Shown in pieces: positions 2,865-13,796 of a stretch of 29,830 bases of DNA (position 1 is the stretch's first letter; each line of letters starts with the position of its first letter). The stretch covers positions 1-29,830 of IMG/VR virus record IMGVR_UViG_3300035183_000238; one strand, 5' to 3'. Position numbers and translations under genes: made by a program. The DNA is from a virus. The notes under the pieces were generated by a model. The model did not search any database, had not been told where the DNA came from, and saw only the letters and a list, made by a program, of their open reading frames with translations.

Positions 2865-4316
2865 TTAGGAATCTCTGATGGTCTTTGATACTTCCTTCTT
2901 CCAATCGATCCGATCGGATCGGATTTCGTAGTATCGGTTATAGCTCCGCGTTTGGATGACGTAGCGGAGGTTCAGGTCCTGTTCGTTGTCTTTGCAGAGG
3001 TATGGGTTGAGATGGTAGACCGTTTCAAATTCAAGACCCTTTGCCTTGTGCCCGGTGAGGAATTGGATGCGGCCGGTTTGCTTCAGCAAGTGCTCAAGGT
3101 AAGAGCACGCTGTGCCGAGGCTTGTGCTAATGCGAAGGAATACACGGATGCAGTCGGCCATGTCCTCGGCGATTTTTGAATTCCTAGCTTGCCTCTCGGC
3201 GAGCCAGTTATCGAGAGCAATTTCCGCCTGTGCGCAGGTCATGTCATCGTCGCCAAGCTTGCGCATCGTGTTCAGGATCCGTGCACCGATATCAATGCCT
3301 GAAACATTAACACCATGGCCAGAAGCAAGCATGCCAATAGCCACGGAGAATAACGGTGCGTTGTTGCGGCAGATGATAGCAGTACCATCGCAAACGCTAC
3401 TAGGGTTAAGTCGGTCCAGAACCGCAACTTCGCCTCCCGATTTGACCCATTTGAAATTCGGCACTCGCCACCGTGCGTTCTCAACTATTGCCTGCGGGCA
3501 CCGGAAGCTGACGCTCAGGTCCAATGCTCGCATTGAATACTTGCTTTCGAGGGCAGCCATTCCTCCTGAAACAGCGCCACGAAAAAGGTAAATGCTTTGC
3601 GCCGGGTCACCGACGACGATGATACGACGATCTCCGACAAGCCGCTCGACCATCGCATGATTGATCGGTGACAGATCCTGTGCCTCGTCAACAAGGATGA
3701 GAGGGAATTTAGGATACGCTCCGCCGAACAAGGCGGACATGTATACCTGATCGTCAAAATCAATGTGCCCTTCGAGGCTTGCTGCGATTGATCGGCAGAG
3801 GACTTTGTCGATTGCTTTTGCGGTTGGTTCGTTTGGGATTTCTTCAAGGGACTGGAGAAATTGTTGGGTGTTGATGAGACGCTTCGCATGGGTGTAGGAA
3901 CCTTCCGGGATGTAGCCAAGGGATTTTGCCCAACGAACCGAGTCAAGAATGAGACTGAAGTTTTTCCAAAGCTCGGATTGCTGCGCTTTCGGCGCTTCGT
4001 CGATGTAGGCTTTGAGGATATCGCCGGTTTTGTTCTTGTTCAGGCGTGGGTTTTTGCCGATGTATCTGGCCCAAATACGGTGCCCAAGGCTGTTGAAGGT
4101 GCGGATTGTGGTCGTTGAGGCCATGCGCGCTTCGGCTTCGACAGCGTTGCGCTTGTTGAAGACGAGGTAAAGGATCGGCTTCTCTGAAACTTGCGTTTCA
4201 AGCATTTCAAGCGTTGTGGTCTTGCCGCAGCCCGCGTAGGATTTGATGATTATGTTATCCCGCGATTGCTTTGCGGCTTCGAAAATCGAAATTTGTTCTG
4301 GCGTTGGGTTGTGCAT
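2865..4316 (-). CDS. Superfamily 1 helicase, UvrD/Rep-like
   Basis: The 483-residue protein has the SF1A helicase motifs in order: a Q-motif-like PTPEQ at residues 4-8, Walker A AGCGKTT at 28-34, motif Ia around YLVFNKRNAVEA, motif II DEAQD at 210-214, motif III GDPAQSIYLFRG at 236-247, motif IV near SVSFRCPQ, motif V in GHKAKGLEFETV and a motif VI-like NLRYVIQTRS. It should unwind DNA with ATP. At 483 residues it is shorter than host UvrD (about 700), as is usual for phage versions. The frame is open to 4451, but the ATG at 4316 is chosen because AGGAA lies seven bases upstream and homology-like sequence begins there. It overlaps the end of the GcrA-like gene by 62 bases. Confidence 0.92.
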   Translation of the reverse strand: MHNPTPEQISIFEAAKQSRDNIIIKSYAGCGKTTTLEMLETQVSEKPILYLVFNKRNAVEAEARMASTTTIRTFNSLGHRIWARYIGKNPRLNKNKTGDILKAYIDEAPKAQQSELWKNFSLILDSVRWAKSLGYIPEGSYTHAKRLINTQQFLQSLEEIPNEPTAKAIDKVLCRSIAASLEGHIDFDDQVYMSALFGGAYPKFPLILVDEAQDLSPINHAMVERLVGDRRIIVVGDPAQSIYLFRGAVSGGMAALESKYSMRALDLSVSFRCPQAIVENARWRVPNFKWVKSGGEVAVLDRLNPSSVCDGTAIICRNNAPLFSVAIGMLASGHGVNVSGIDIGARILNTMRKLGDDDMTCAQAEIALDNWLAERQARNSKIAEDMADCIRVFLRISTSLGTACSYLEHLLKQTGRIQFLTGHKAKGLEFETVYHLNPYLCKDNEQDLNLRYVIQTRSYNRYYEIRSDRIDWKKEVSKTIRDS

Positions 4317-4737
4317 GGGAAGGTTCCTTTTGGCGGTAGACGGCCTCGCAGTGCTGCGCGCAGTAGGGTTTGTTAGCAAAGACAGGCTGCGCGCAGAAAT
4401 GGTAAACGCCGTCAACTTCATGCGTTGGGTATCTGCATTCGCGCGGCGCAATAGCTAGGAGTGGTTTGGTTTCATACGCAGGCGGCTGCGTCTGTGATAG
4501 CGGGTGGGGTTTGAATTTGAACATCCGCTTTCTGAGACGGGCCTGTCCACGAGGTGCTTTGGGCTTTTTAACCCTGGTCCCAACTGGCTTGGGACCAAGG
4601 CCGAGACGCCGGGCTTTGCCGATAACTGCGTTTTCTGTCAGCCCGAGCTTTTCTGCAATCATCTTGCAGGAAAAGCTCAAGAGCGGCCAAAGCTCGCGGA
4701 GGGTTTTTTCTTTCTTGGCGGTCCAAGTTTTATTCAT
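4255..4737 (-). CDS. GcrA-like cell-cycle transcription regulator
   Basis: The 160-residue product has both halves of the GcrA family. Residues 4-50 give the DNA-binding helix-turn-helix (TWTAKKEKTLRELW, then IAEKLGLTENAVIGKARRLG), and the C-terminal part has the cysteine/histidine-rich sigma-binding domain (CRYPTHEVDG, FCAQPV, PYCAQHCEAVY) after a basic proline-rich linker. In Caulobacter GcrA binds sigma70 and activates promoters carrying methylated GANTC sites. A phage copy could steer host or phage transcription. The start at 4737 lies six bases after the MazG-like stop and has only a weak ribosome site, so coupling is likely. The last 62 bases overlap the helicase gene. Confidence 0.87.
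   Translation of the reverse strand: MNKTWTAKKEKTLRELWPLLSFSCKMIAEKLGLTENAVIGKARRLGLGPKPVGTRVKKPKAPRGQARLRKRMFKFKPHPLSQTQPPAYETKPLLAIAPRECRYPTHEVDGVYHFCAQPVFANKPYCAQHCEAVYRQKEPSHAQPNARTNFDFRSRKAIAG
4718..4737. repeat. 20-bp direct repeat, copy 1 (start of gcrA-like gene)
   Basis: This copy covers the ATG and first codons of the GcrA-like gene on the minus strand. It matches 6007-6026 at 19 of 20 positions in the same orientation. The two copies bound a segment holding the MazG-like gene, the SerRS-tail mini-gene and one of the two paralogs. Confidence 0.75.
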
Positions 4738-9351: not shown

Positions 9352-9567
9352 TCAGCGATTCGGGCGGGATTGCCCATCTTGGGCGCTGAGCGCCCAAACT
9401 CGATGCAGCGGCCAGACGTGCCGCCAGGTGTACCCACGCGTCGCGTGGTCTTCGAAGTACGTCACTGCCAGCCCTGAGCGGGACGTGAACGACACGTACC
9501 CCTCGCCGTGCGTCGCATGCCGCACGCGCTGGCCTACGCGCAGCGCCTTCGCTTGATCTGGGCTCAT
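9352..9567 (-). CDS. Small SH3-like/Tudor-like protein (71 aa)
   Basis: After a short helix (MSPDQAKALR) the protein has a run of likely strands: VGQRVRHATHGEGYVSF, then SGLAVTYFEDH, then YTWRHVWPLHRV. The pattern of a hydrophobic-basic turn with HGEG and a following V-x-YFE strand resembles the small Tudor/SH3-like barrels found at the C-terminus of UvrD-type helicases and in DUF3553. Such domains bind partner proteins or nucleic acid. A very good ribosome site (AAGGAGGAG) precedes the start at 9567, and the gene is first after the promoter at 9589-9617. The fold assignment is tentative. Confidence 0.7.
   Translation of the reverse strand: MSPDQAKALRVGQRVRHATHGEGYVSFTSRSGLAVTYFEDHATRGYTWRHVWPLHRVWALSAQDGQSRPNR
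9379..9397. repeat. Perfect 8-bp hairpin inside the end of the SH3-like gene
   Basis: TTGGGCGC and GCGCCCAA form a stem with a three-base loop. It lies 25 bases before the stop of the 71-residue gene and resembles the hairpin at 9992-10010. Confidence 0.5.
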
Positions 9568-9588: not shown

Positions 9589-9617
9589 ATCCTACCACGA
9601 CCCTGTGCCAGGGTCAA
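9589..9617 (-). promoter_or_regulatory. Sigma70-like promoter (TTGACC-N17-TAGGAT)
   Basis: A -35 element TTGACC at 9617-9612 and a -10 element TAGGAT at 9594-9589 are 17 bases apart on the minus strand. The transcript would start near 9583 and reach the ATG at 9567 after a short leader carrying AAGGAGGAG. A GACCCT/AGGGTC inverted repeat lies in the spacer. Confidence 0.62.
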
Positions 9618-9643
9618 TTCACGACTTCGTGAACACCGTTCAC
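9618..9643. promoter_or_regulatory. Operator-like array of three TTCAC/GTGAA half-sites
   Basis: The palindrome TTCACGACTTCGTGAA at 9618-9633 abuts the -35 element of the promoter at 9589-9617. It shares its right half with a second inverted repeat, GTGAAC-ACC-GTTCAC, at 9629-9643. The alternating half-sites look like a binding site for a dimeric regulator. Confidence 0.5.
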
Positions 9644-9650
9644 AGAGCCG

Positions 9651-9862
9651 TGACCAGATAGCGACCAGATCCGGCCTAGATGAGGCCCGGATAGCCCGAT
9701 TGTAGCCTACCCCGGCCCCGGGTCCCTCCCCTCCCCTGTCTGTCCTCAGAGAGAGAGATCTACAGGGAGAGGACCCTAGGGGGAGGGGGACCCACGGGCG
9801 GCCCAGCTTACAATCCGGCTATCCGGGCCTCATCTAGGCGCCAGCTGGTCACCATCTGGTCA
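9651..9862. repeat. Large imperfect inverted repeat, 54-nt arms
   Basis: The left arm is 9651-9704 and the right arm 9809-9862. By eye 47 of 54 positions are complementary, including a perfect run of 23. The 104-base centre is unusually pyrimidine-rich on one side (GGTCCCTCCCCTCCCC) and purine-rich on the other (AGGGGGAGGGGGACCC), and these halves can also pair in part. Together they could form a very long hairpin or cruciform. The segment is otherwise non-coding except that the right arm overlaps the end of the 27-residue mini-gene. It is a candidate replication origin, regulatory RNA structure or recombination remnant. Confidence 0.7.
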
Positions 9863-9932
9863 GCAGGACCAGGACCACGGCCGCGTGCAGTAGCACGCCA
9901 CAGGCGAGCGCCGCGGCGACGATATGGACCAT
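9849..9932 (-). CDS. 27-residue single-span membrane mini-protein
   Basis: A short frame from the ATG at 9932 to TGA at 9851-9849 is preceded by AGGGAGG with a five-base spacer, one of the best ribosome sites in the window. The product MVHIVAAALACGVLLHAAVV continues LVLLTRW and is a single hydrophobic helix with a basic end, fitting a one-span membrane protein. Its last codons lie in the right arm of the large inverted repeat. Tiny single-span phage proteins can act in lysis timing, host inhibition or superinfection exclusion, but no specific role is indicated. Confidence 0.5.
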   Translation of the reverse strand: MVHIVAAALACGVLLHAAVVLVLLTRW

Positions 9933-9991: not shown

Positions 9992-10010
9992 ACGGGCGCT
10001 TAGCGCCCGT
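9992..10010. repeat. Perfect 8-bp hairpin with a stop codon as its loop
   Basis: ACGGGCGC and GCGCCCGT form a perfect stem whose three-base loop is exactly the TAA stop codon (minus strand) of the 85-residue gene. It may block read-through or protect the mRNA end. Confidence 0.55.
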
Positions 10011-10257
10011 TTCGGCGAACGTGGTTCTCAAGCAACGCTTGGGTGCTGCTCCGGTAGTAGCAGTCGTTGGCCGTCTTGGCCACCTCTGCGGCGAAGGCCT
10101 CAGGGACGCCATGCGCTTTGAGGCTCTGGAGCAGGGCCACCACTCGGACACGCCGTTCGAAGCTCTCCAAGTCATCTTCGGCCGGTCGCGTGTCCTCGCG
10201 GTACTTCGCATTCGCCTCGACGTACCGACTGAGCGTCTCAAGCAGTTCATTGGTCAT
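10000..10257 (-). CDS. Small protein of a three-member tandem family, member 3 (85 aa)
   Basis: The C-terminal half reads VALLQSLKAHGVPEAFAAEV, then a short helix ending QALLENHV. The same layout (an L-rich helix, GVP or KVP, a V/A-rich helix, about ten residues, then LL or FL) recurs in the two genes upstream at 10289-10543 and 10610-10885. The N-terminal half is charged and helical. AAAGGAG precedes the start at 10257. No known family is recognised. These are the first genes leftward of the control region, so they are probably immediate-early proteins. Confidence 0.72.
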   Translation of the reverse strand: MTNELLETLSRYVEANAKYREDTRPAEDDLESFERRVRVVALLQSLKAHGVPEAFAAEVAKTANDCYYRSSTQALLENHVRRNGR

Positions 10258-11179: not shown

Positions 11180-11566
11180 GTGTTTGACGGTTTCTTGGAC
11201 GTTTCGCCTTTGCTGCGCTGCGGGGTTTATATCCTGACCCTGCGCGGGAAGGTGGTTTACGTCGGGAAGGCGAAGCAGATGTTGGCTCGGATTTACCAGC
11301 ATCGGGAGCTTTGGGTGCAGGCGCGGCGCGGGACGAAGATGCCGAGTTTCTTGGCGCAGAAGGGTGTGCAGTTCGACGCGGTGTATGTCAAGCCTTGCCA
11401 CCCGGACCGGGTGGACTCGCTTGAGCGGGAGCTGATCGCGCGGTACCGCCCGAAGTACAACACCTTGCTTCAGCCCCCGCCGGGCGGCTGTGTCACGATC
11501 GAGATCGGCGGGATGCCGTTCACGGTTAACACCAAGCCGAAGGCTGGCTTTGTTCGGAGAGCCTGA
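11180..11566 (+). CDS. GIY-YIG nuclease domain protein
   Basis: The 128-residue protein has the GIY-YIG pattern: GVY at 15-17 and YVG at 27-29 (in GVYILTLRGKVVYVGKAK), the basic residue R37, and the acidic LEREL at 81-85 that should hold the metal-binding glutamate, followed by RPKYN. These nucleases cut one DNA strand or resolve structures. The start is GTG with AAGGAG nine bases upstream. It ends in a TGATG overlap with the small terminase gene. Many phages have an HNH nuclease beside the terminase that assists packaging; this GIY-YIG gene sits in that place and may do the same, or may be a homing enzyme. Confidence 0.88.
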   Translation: MFDGFLDVSPLLRCGVYILTLRGKVVYVGKAKQMLARIYQHRELWVQARRGTKMPSFLAQKGVQFDAVYVKPCHPDRVDSLERELIARYRPKYNTLLQPPPGGCVTIEIGGMPFTVNTKPKAGFVRRA

Positions 11567-12297
11567 TGCAGCGGCAGCGCATCGCAACGAAGATTGACTT
11601 CGAGGTCCGGGACCTTGTCCCCGCGGACCTTGCTGCGCTGCGCCCTGAGGCGGGCCGGGCCGACCTCTCGACCCCGCAGCAATTCCGTGATACCCACCAC
11701 CGAATCGCGCGGCTGGTCGCGTCGGGGCTTCGGCTAACTGAAGTCGCAGAGCGCACGGGCTTCTCCTATGGCCGGGTGACGATGCTATCAAAGAGCCCGG
11801 CGTTCCAAAGCCTGGTCGATTTCTACCGCGAGAAAGTCGAGGAAGCGTTTGTGCAGGCCGAGCTCGACTTCCACATCGATGCAACGCGCGTGCGAACGAA
11901 AGCGCTGCGGCATGTCGAGGAGCACTTCGACCGGGCCGATGAGGCAGATGAAATCGTCCCGCTGCGCCTTGCGCTGGCTACTGTCGAAGCCACCGCTGAT
12001 CGCACTGGCTACGGCAAGCAAAGCACCAAATTCAACGTAAACACCGACTTCGCGAAGGCTCTCGAACAAGCTTACGTCGCGCAAGCGCGTGTGATAGAAT
12101 CCCGTGCGCATCCTCCCCGCACGGTGGCGGAGCATCCCCCGATGATTGCTCCGCGCTCAGCGGCGTTGTCGGACCCAAGCGCCGCTGAGCATCCTACTTC
12201 GGCCCGCCCGGTTGCCGAAGTGCCGCCCCGCGCTCCCGTTGCTGGCGTTGCGGTTGAGCGCGGGGCGGATCAATTCGCGATACGGAGGCGAGCATGA
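11566..12297 (+). CDS. Terminase small subunit-like protein
   Basis: The 243-residue protein has a helix-turn-helix in residues 45-75 (IARLVASGLRLTEVAERTGF, SYGRVTML), a helical middle, and a low-complexity Ala/Pro-rich end (RAHPPRTVAEHPP, SARPVAEVPPRAPVAG). Small terminase subunits recognise the packaging site with an N-terminal HTH, oligomerise through a central helical part and contact the large subunit with the C-terminus. It lies between a nuclease gene and the large terminase gene, overlapping the first by one base and the second by four. The DNA for the C-terminal tail holds five inverted repeats in a row. Low sequence conservation in this family means the assignment leans on position. 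Confidence 0.8.
   Translation: MQRQRIATKIDFEVRDLVPADLAALRPEAGRADLSTPQQFRDTHHRIARLVASGLRLTEVAERTGFSYGRVTMLSKSPAFQSLVDFYREKVEEAFVQAELDFHIDATRVRTKALRHVEEHFDRADEADEIVPLRLALATVEATADRTGYGKQSTKFNVNTDFAKALEQAYVAQARVIESRAHPPRTVAEHPPMIAPRSAALSDPSAAEHPTSARPVAEVPPRAPVAGVAVERGADQFAIRRRA
12102..12268. repeat. Five consecutive inverted repeats inside the small terminase gene
   Basis: Perfect stems: 12102-12108 with 12118-12124 (7 bp), 12127-12134 with 12147-12154 (8 bp), 12155-12165 with 12180-12190 (11 bp), 12196-12203 with 12214-12221 (8 bp), and 12223-12235 with 12256-12268 (13 bp). The loops are 9 to 20 bases. The set fills the last sixth of the gene with hardly any gaps, which chance does not readily explain. 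Confidence 0.7.
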
Positions 12298-13796
12298 GTA
12301 ACGGCGTTGTTGAATGGCTTGCCTCGGTCCGGAACGACCCGCTTGCCTTTGTCATGGGCGCGTTTCCATGGAAGACCCCGGGCACAATCCTTGAAAACTC
12401 CGAAGGCCCGGACACGTGGCAACGGGATATCCTCGAGCTGGTCCGGCTCGGCCTGCTCGACCTGAACACCGCGATCAAAATCGCTGTTGCCTCAGGCCAC
12501 GGCATCGGCAAATCCTGCCTTGTCGCGTGGCTCGTAATGTGGGCTTTCATGACCTTCCCTGACACCCGCGGCCGCGTTACCGCCGGCACCGAAGCGCAGC
12601 TTAAAACCACAACCTGGGCCGAGCTCGGCAAATGGTTCAACCTCTGCTGGTTCGCCGCGGAGCATTTCAACCTGACCGCCACCGCGCTGATGTCGAAAGA
12701 CCCAACCCGCGAGCGCACGTGGCGCATTGACATGGTGCCTTGGTCCGAGAACAACCCAGAAGCCTTCGCGGGTATGCACAACCAAGGCAAGCGGATCATC
12801 TACATCTTCGACGAAGGCTCAGCGATCCCGGACATCATCTACGAAACCGCCGAAGGCGCGTTGACGGACAGGGACACTCAAATCATCTGGTGCGTGTTCG
12901 GCAACCCAACCAAAAACTCCGGGCGGTTCTACGAAATCTTCTCCGCCGGGCCGTTCTCAAACGGCTGGAAGACCCGGCAGATCGACAGCCGAACCGTGGC
13001 CATCACGAACAAAGCCGACATCGCGGCGAAGATTGCTATCTACGGCGAGGATTCGGACTATATCCGCATCCGCGTGCTGGGTCAATTCCCGCGGCGCGGC
13101 ATGCTGGAATTCTTCAACGCGGATGATATTGACGCGGCAATGACCCGCGAGGTTGCGGTTTCCAAATCCGATCCGCTCGCGATCGGTGTTGACGTTGCTC
13201 GCTTCGGCGCTAACAATTCCGTTATCTGGCCACGCAAAGGCCGCGACGCGCGGACCTTCGAACGCGAGGTCTACAACGGAATCTCCACCGTCGCGTTGGC
13301 CCGGAAGGTATTCGACGCATACGAACGCTACCGCCCGGACGGAATCTTCATCGACGGCGGCGGCGTTGGTGGCGGCGTCGTCGACAACTGCCGCGCAATG
13401 CAGCTGCATGTCTTTGACATTCAATTCGGTTCGAAGAACGACATCTCTACCACCGCAATGGCCACCGCAGGCGAGCGCTACGCCAACAAACGTGCAGGCA
13501 TGTACGGTGCGCTCCGCGCATGGCTTGCAACTGGCGCGCTGCCGCTGGACCCACGGCTGAAGCGGACAATGCTCGCGATCACGTACACCTTTAACAACCG
13601 CGACGAGATCGTTCTAACCCCGAAAGAAGATATCGCTGAGCAGAACCAAGACCTCATTCTCGACGACCTCGACGCGCTTGCCTTGACCTTCGCTATGCCT
13701 TTGGCGCCGAACTTCAACGCTGGAGGCATCCACGAAAAGTCACCGGCGGTCGAGTTTGAATATGATCCTTTCAATGACAAAGAGCTAGCAGCATGA
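12294..13796 (+). CDS. terL: Terminase large subunit
   Basis: The 500-residue protein has the packaging ATPase motifs: Walker A SGHGIGKS at residues 67-74, Walker B RIIYIFDEGSAI near 165-176 with the catalytic glutamate, and a coupling motif near CVFGNPTKNSGRF. The C-terminal RNase H-like nuclease domain has AIGVDVARFG near residue 300 and a second acidic strand GIFIDGGGVGGG. It drives DNA into the prohead with ATP and cuts the genome. The start at 12294 overlaps the small subunit gene (ATGA). Length and motif order are complete, with no sign of damage. Confidence 0.95.
   Translation: MSNGVVEWLASVRNDPLAFVMGAFPWKTPGTILENSEGPDTWQRDILELVRLGLLDLNTAIKIAVASGHGIGKSCLVAWLVMWAFMTFPDTRGRVTAGTEAQLKTTTWAELGKWFNLCWFAAEHFNLTATALMSKDPTRERTWRIDMVPWSENNPEAFAGMHNQGKRIIYIFDEGSAIPDIIYETAEGALTDRDTQIIWCVFGNPTKNSGRFYEIFSAGPFSNGWKTRQIDSRTVAITNKADIAAKIAIYGEDSDYIRIRVLGQFPRRGMLEFFNADDIDAAMTREVAVSKSDPLAIGVDVARFGANNSVIWPRKGRDARTFEREVYNGISTVALARKVFDAYERYRPDGIFIDGGGVGGGVVDNCRAMQLHVFDIQFGSKNDISTTAMATAGERYANKRAGMYGALRAWLATGALPLDPRLKRTMLAITYTFNNRDEIVLTPKEDIAEQNQDLILDDLDALALTFAMPLAPNFNAGGIHEKSPAVEFEYDPFNDKELAA

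Follow-up and report, generated by a model that had tools for sequence, protein, structure and literature searches.

The window, by which we mean the whole 29.8-kb stretch of viral DNA analysed here, is a partial soil-phage genome with an epsilon15-like virion module that includes the large terminase (TerL), a head-tail connector and a GP7 capsid protein. Early genes are read leftward and the GIY-YIG, TerS, TerL and virion genes rightward, and a large hairpin adjoins the start of the early arm (Table 1). It lies between two leftward ORFs, and in the window a few small genes on its right side are also read leftward. A homologue of the cell-cycle regulator GcrA is encoded at 4255-4737 on the minus strand (PF07750, 62 bits), and this phage-borne gene suggests, by homology, an alphaproteobacterial host.

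Table 1. Features around the hairpin, with positions in the window unless a contig is named
Feature	Position	Strand	Remarks
First leftward ORF past the promoter	9352..9567	-	71 aa, function unknown; strong ribosome site
Sigma70-like promoter	9589..9617	-	TTGACC-17-TAGGAT, extended -10; 33 nt outside the left arm
Whole inverted repeat	9651..9862	.	212 nt; best hairpin in the window
Left arm	9651..9734	+	outer half made of tandem degenerate 11-nt repeats
Centre	9735..9778	.	(AG)n simple-sequence tract
Right arm	9779..9862	-	11-nt repeats of the left arm, inverted
Small leftward ORF right of the hairpin	10000..10257	-	85 aa, function unknown
GIY-YIG endonuclease	11180..11566	+	Pfam PF01541; first conserved late-arm gene
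Putative small terminase, TerS	11566..12297	+	overlaps the TerL start
Large terminase, TerL	12294..13796	+	epsilon15-like; phrog_2, phrog_5902
KVSEKGGLSVYGLGRFPVTLY family member	L020:8331-8636		
KVSEKGGLSVYGLGRFPVTLY family member	L059:5554-5907	-	
KVSEKGGLSVYGLGRFPVTLY family member	L003:8334-8606	-	
KVSEKGGLSVYGLGRFPVTLY family member	L080:1975-2280	-	

Two genes between the hairpin and TerL bear on its possible function. The GIY-YIG gene matched PF01541 at 27.2 bits (cut-off 22.6), its catalytic Y, Y, R, H, E and N residues were kept in 10 of 10 cases, and homologues lay just upstream of TerS in 44 loci; we regard the enzyme as a candidate accessory nuclease. The putative TerS, with homologues in 60 loci, has a helix-turn-helix followed by long helices and a weak HTH_23 match. 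In its structure model (mean pLDDT 69) a long helix was likewise seen together with a helix-turn-helix, and comparison of this model with PDB folds gave no significant match. We consider it a candidate binder of the repeats described below. A small conserved protein family (KVSEKGGLSVYGLGRFPVTLY) is also encoded near the hairpin, on a strand that varies between relatives; its L020 and L059 members had no Pfam or PHROG match. Among the several giant late proteins of the clade is one of 2094 aa with an LPD22 domain (L098:360-6644, genome G007).

The initial annotation had described an inverted repeat with 54-nt arms, and this repeat proved real. The segments 9651-9704 and 9809-9862 are complementary at 47 of 54 positions, with a longest perfect run of 23 bp, as against a maximum of 16 in 200 first-order shuffles of the window. 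Pairing continues inward to give 84-nt arms with 66 Watson-Crick pairs (79%). The 104-base centre proposed at first was therefore partly paired: its facing pyrimidine and purine tracts do pair, in a second pairing of 20 nt, but the true centre outside the 84-nt arms has 44 bases. When the folding of positions 9640-9872 was computed, as had been suggested, it was far more stable than that of shuffled sequences, none of which matched the real energy: -144.9 kcal/mol (z -9.7) for plus-strand RNA, -160.1 kcal/mol (z -9.5) for minus-strand RNA and -74.8 kcal/mol (z -8.3) for DNA. A gapped-stem scan scored the hairpin at 47 and the next-best hairpin in the window at 14.5, with maxima of 13.5-21.5 in shuffled 30-kb sequences. 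The region has stops in all six frames and stands beside a leftward promoter-like site (9617 to 9589), in keeping with its first description as a non-coding site next to a promoter.

In order to follow the hairpin into other genomes, we used TerL as an anchor and compared relatives with 58-67% TerL identity. Large hairpins recurred at the same place, so that conservation of pairing, whose absence was to have counted against the first interpretation of the site, was found. We collected 35 non-redundant hairpins of 171-323 nt, placed where the leftward early genes give way to terminase and virion genes that run rightward; these counts come from related sequences in metagenomic contigs and are not independent events. 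The hairpin was usually the strongest of its genome in the gapped-stem scan and nearly always lay 1.3-2.5 kb upstream of TerL (median distance from its right edge, 1868 nt). In most near-complete relatives the top hairpin was 1.8-2.4 kb upstream of TerL; in G003 and G010 the distance was 4.0 and 4.7 kb. G001 was ambiguous: it has a folded structure at -2.1 kb, but the stem score there is low. The contig of G002 is cut near TerL and carries its hairpin 2 kb from the far end, as expected for a circularly permuted map. In some relatives with enough upstream sequence the hairpin score was not above noise. The sequences of the hairpins differ between relatives, and their plan is constant. These observations support the view that the hairpin is a special cis-acting site whose plan is conserved across relatives.

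The site also appears beyond the close relatives. L151/L152, a more distant epsilon15-like phage (TerL 55%), has a hairpin of 242 nt roughly 1.5 kb upstream of TerL. Two phages of other terminase families, ctMlz233 (L137:38403-38615, score 40) and a Desulfofustis phage (L144:5051-5439, score 30), carry strong hairpins with an A-tract centre upstream of TerL. In contrast, temperate epsilon15-like isolates with a related TerL had no comparable hairpin, and neither did Tiera, Pam5 and MW202444. The hairpin thus follows the lytic layout with a PolA-type polymerase and not TerL, a point against the packaging reading given below; a family A DNA polymerase was found in 13 of 15 records (the partial window and its relatives). 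A search of bacterial genomes for relatives by means of a 215-aa flanking protein found none. One candidate, L062:712-992, was set aside: its left arm resembles that of L066 and its right arm that of L071, the two being joined over a conserved T-tract centre, and it is probably an assembly chimera and possibly a recombinant.

A large near-perfect palindrome may bring to mind a protelomerase telomere or a mobile palindromic element (MITE), and we find both very improbable. No integrase or protelomerase match was found in the window and 14 relatives, the ResT-TelK family being matched in 0 of these 15 records, which may be incomplete. A genome usually has a single strong site, whose position is fixed and whose sequence has diverged. 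The 20-nt hairpin core had no exact copy elsewhere in the viral contigs searched, and blastn of the hairpin region against phages and plasmids returned no copy, so that a spreading element was rejected.

The arms are built of short repeats. In the window, the units of the left arm read GACCAGATAGC GACCAGATCCG GCCTAGATGAG GCCCGGATAGC; motif sites lie at 9653, 9664, 9675, 9686 and 9694, and on the minus strand of the right arm at 9817, 9828 and 9850. Autocorrelation at lag 11 gave a z of 3.6 for this left arm and, over the hairpin set, 12.1 for left and 10.3 for right arms (about 6 at lag 22), while random control segments showed no such periodicity. The shared core is CCCTGATnnnn, in which A-T is nearly fixed. 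An arm had 2.93 sites on average, compared with 0.81 for controls, and the dominant spacing was 11; because this core was fitted on the same arms, the independent evidence is the periodicity together with a pattern scan. That scan, of 2.9 million viral contigs for three in-phase repeats, returned 13 stretches, which include known members and L151/L152, the others being mostly unrelated. A repeat pattern run against genome contigs also gave cellular contigs. In a viral contig of another kind, divergent genes are separated by an intergenic gap that holds an 11-nt array, AGGGTACGATC (L153:2595-2690). Most hairpins combine a pyrimidine-rich left arm with a purine-rich right arm, and in most genomes the centre is a simple-sequence tract of T, A, (TA)n, (TG)n or (GA)n.

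We then asked whether the arms behave as DNA or as RNA. The initial annotation had considered a long structured RNA, which as a leader, processing site or decoy dsRNA would derive from a leftward transcript. The RNA folds are indeed very stable on both strands, and small leftward ORFs flank the hairpin in the window. Mismatches within the arms, read on the plus strand, were 163 G.T, 227 A.C and 360 others. The slight A.C excess would correspond to G-U on the minus strand, but this is a weak wobble bias and no strong G-U preference. Compensation was in modest excess but loose, at 0.20 against 0.06-0.13 in slid controls, with many uncompensated changes, and no Rfam family was matched at the gathering threshold, permissive matches being generic hairpins. 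Since the main promoter starts just beyond the hairpin in 30 of 35 genomes, the early transcript would exclude it. For these reasons the RNA claim was not borne out, and we think it improbable. The two arms within one genome are 65-88% identical, whereas orthologous arms of diverged relatives are often less alike (0.53-0.80; close relatives more so), which indicates that arm similarity is maintained while the sequence drifts. Judged from these alignments, arms that co-evolve as DNA repeat arrays fit better than a structured RNA, and the arrays are possibly homogenised by fold-back.

The promoter next to the left arm is a further constant feature. A strong leftward sigma70 promoter lay within 200 nt to the left of the hairpin at the frequency given above (control 6.6%), and matched 11 or 12 of 12 bases in 16 of 35 genomes (control 0.1%); an extended -10 was frequent, and promoters were rare on the right side. 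This one-sided proximity makes a regulatory role possible and counts against a genome end. The hairpin could be an operator or upstream control element, in which a regulator filament on the 11-bp repeats silences or boosts the leftward promoter. The repeats resemble regulator arrays such as R1 parC, whose iterons are bound by ParR. Yet they lie outside the -35 and -10 boxes, the far arm is about 150-300 nt from the promoter, an operator has no need of self-complementarity over its full length, and no regulator gene was recognised beside the hairpin. Taken together, these points make an operator quite unlikely in our view.

In order to place the hairpin with respect to replication, we carried out the whole-genome GC-skew analysis that had been proposed. 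In 10 of 11 relatives the cumulative maximum was no more than 2.5 kb from the hairpin, and in the 11th it was 5.8 kb away. The minimum, at 0.37-0.53 of the genome length, was about half a genome from the hairpin and inside the rightward block, where no switch in gene orientation explains it; the extremum at the hairpin is also near such a switch. The window itself deviated, its minimum being only about 6 kb from the hairpin. By the usual sign of the skew, a maximum at the hairpin places the terminus there and the origin at mid-genome. The sign can be inverted in phages. A replication origin, as first suggested, is the main rival of a genome end: an initiator would bind the inverted repeats, the centre would melt or the cruciform be nicked, and replication would start between the early and late arms. 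Consistent with it are the repeats flanking a simple-sequence tract, usually in one strong copy per genome, the skew extrema at the hairpin and half a genome away, an AT-skew minimum that in four genomes lies no more than 25 nt from the centre of the hairpin, and the way in which the hairpin tracks the PolA-type replication module across differing terminases (ctMlz233 and the Desulfofustis phage). The skew at the hairpin is a maximum and not a minimum, many centres consist of (GA)n or (TG)n and only in some genomes is the centre A/T-rich, no initiator gene was recognised among those ORFs that were scanned, in genomes with many small genes of unknown function, and the known genome end of Caulobacter phage Kuura lies in an equivalent site. 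An origin is therefore the second-best reading, possible but unlikely.

We favour, with about even confidence, a site for concatemer processing and packaging, that is, a genome terminus, a reading based on sequence and on analogy with known phage ends. It is supported by the end of Kuura in an equivalent repeat, the end of LUZ24 at the same junction and the GC-skew pattern. The hairpin occupies the position, upstream of TerS and TerL and where the early and late arms diverge, at which genome ends are found in phages with direct terminal repeats. Its short tandem repeats recur about once per helical turn, like those that flank the T7 end; such repeats are not universal among these phages.

The ends of Kuura (OQ067476) were determined by PhageTerm (PMC9959647). 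The left edge of its exact 606-bp terminal repeat, at 43208, falls within an inverted repeat that spans 43046-43248, contains GGGCAGT repeats spaced 9-11 nt apart and has A12 at its centre. Like the clade, Kuura begins its terminal repeat in an inverted repeat between early and late arms; its gene layout is the same, its PolA is related (35%), and the skew around its known end is similar, with a minimum at 0.44. Unlike the clade, it has another TerL family, another repeat sequence and a weak hairpin (local p 0.010, score 16, DNA fold z -0.7), and because of the weak repeat and the different TerL its relevance is by analogy. Termini of the LUZ24/tf type also have converging arms and direct terminal repeats at the divergent junction upstream of TerS, in LUZ24 1.75 kb from the TerL start, but their terminal repeats are 184-186 bp and there is no strong hairpin; a long but weak inverted repeat spans the end edge in LUZ24 (p 0.033). 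Other phages with known terminal repeats had no significant inverted repeat over the end (tf, p 0.75; phiKMV, 0.63; T7, 0.21).

T7 has short repeats with an 11-12/24-nt period on both sides of its terminal-repeat edge, and hairpin DNA containing the terminal repeat was reported during infection (PMC4281155; PMC9503643, ref 24); for a hairpin end at the concatemer junction, PMC9503643 cites Chung, Nardone and Hinkle (1990). The clade shares with T7 the periodic arrays and a hairpin, and differs in that its arrays are inverted and form the 171-323 nt hairpin, as against no significant inverted repeat at the T7 edge. P1 pac and R1 parC each have a central region flanked by short repeats, which form two clusters and recur about once per helical turn. 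These sites work with different proteins and lack long self-complementarity. Four short contigs that are near-identical to longer ones (L026, L052, L068 and L073) begin inside the hairpin. Such starts were only mildly enriched and may be assembly breaks, so they were not accepted as physical ends.

On the favoured reading, the hairpin would act in cis as a DNA element where the early and late transcription units meet, and would mark the genome terminus. A DNA-binding protein of the phage, most likely TerS, may assemble on the two inverted arrays; a unit of 11 bp is about one helical turn, so that the array would suit wrapping by a small terminase, and small terminases have been proposed to wrap or thread DNA (PMC11331095). 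The concatemer would be nicked or cut in or near the hairpin by the GIY-YIG enzyme or TerL, and the stimulation of cos cleavage by the HNH protein gp74 in HK97 (PMC11331095) is a precedent for an accessory nuclease. Packaging would begin at this site and yield a genome with direct terminal repeats. A nicked or displaced strand, or a cruciform extruded by transcription from the early promoter, may then fold back and help to duplicate the terminal repeat, as proposed for T7. The complete scheme, in which a giant cruciform serves as the genome end of a lytic clade, with repeats that load the packaging protein, transcription that extrudes the hairpin, a GIY-YIG nickase or TerL that cuts it and a fold-back that primes duplication of the terminal repeat, is put forward tentatively, and we hold it to be rather doubtful as a whole.

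It has long been asked how a phage with direct terminal repeats copies the repeat in the course of cutting its concatemers, and a conserved, strongly self-complementary site built of repeats offers a clean test system for it. If the giant-cruciform scheme is true, the hairpin step long discussed for T7 would be a built-in feature of the sequence in this clade. The termini of uncultivated phage genomes get lost in assembly, and the signature of an early promoter, inverted 11-nt repeats and a hairpin upstream of TerS could help to place their ends.
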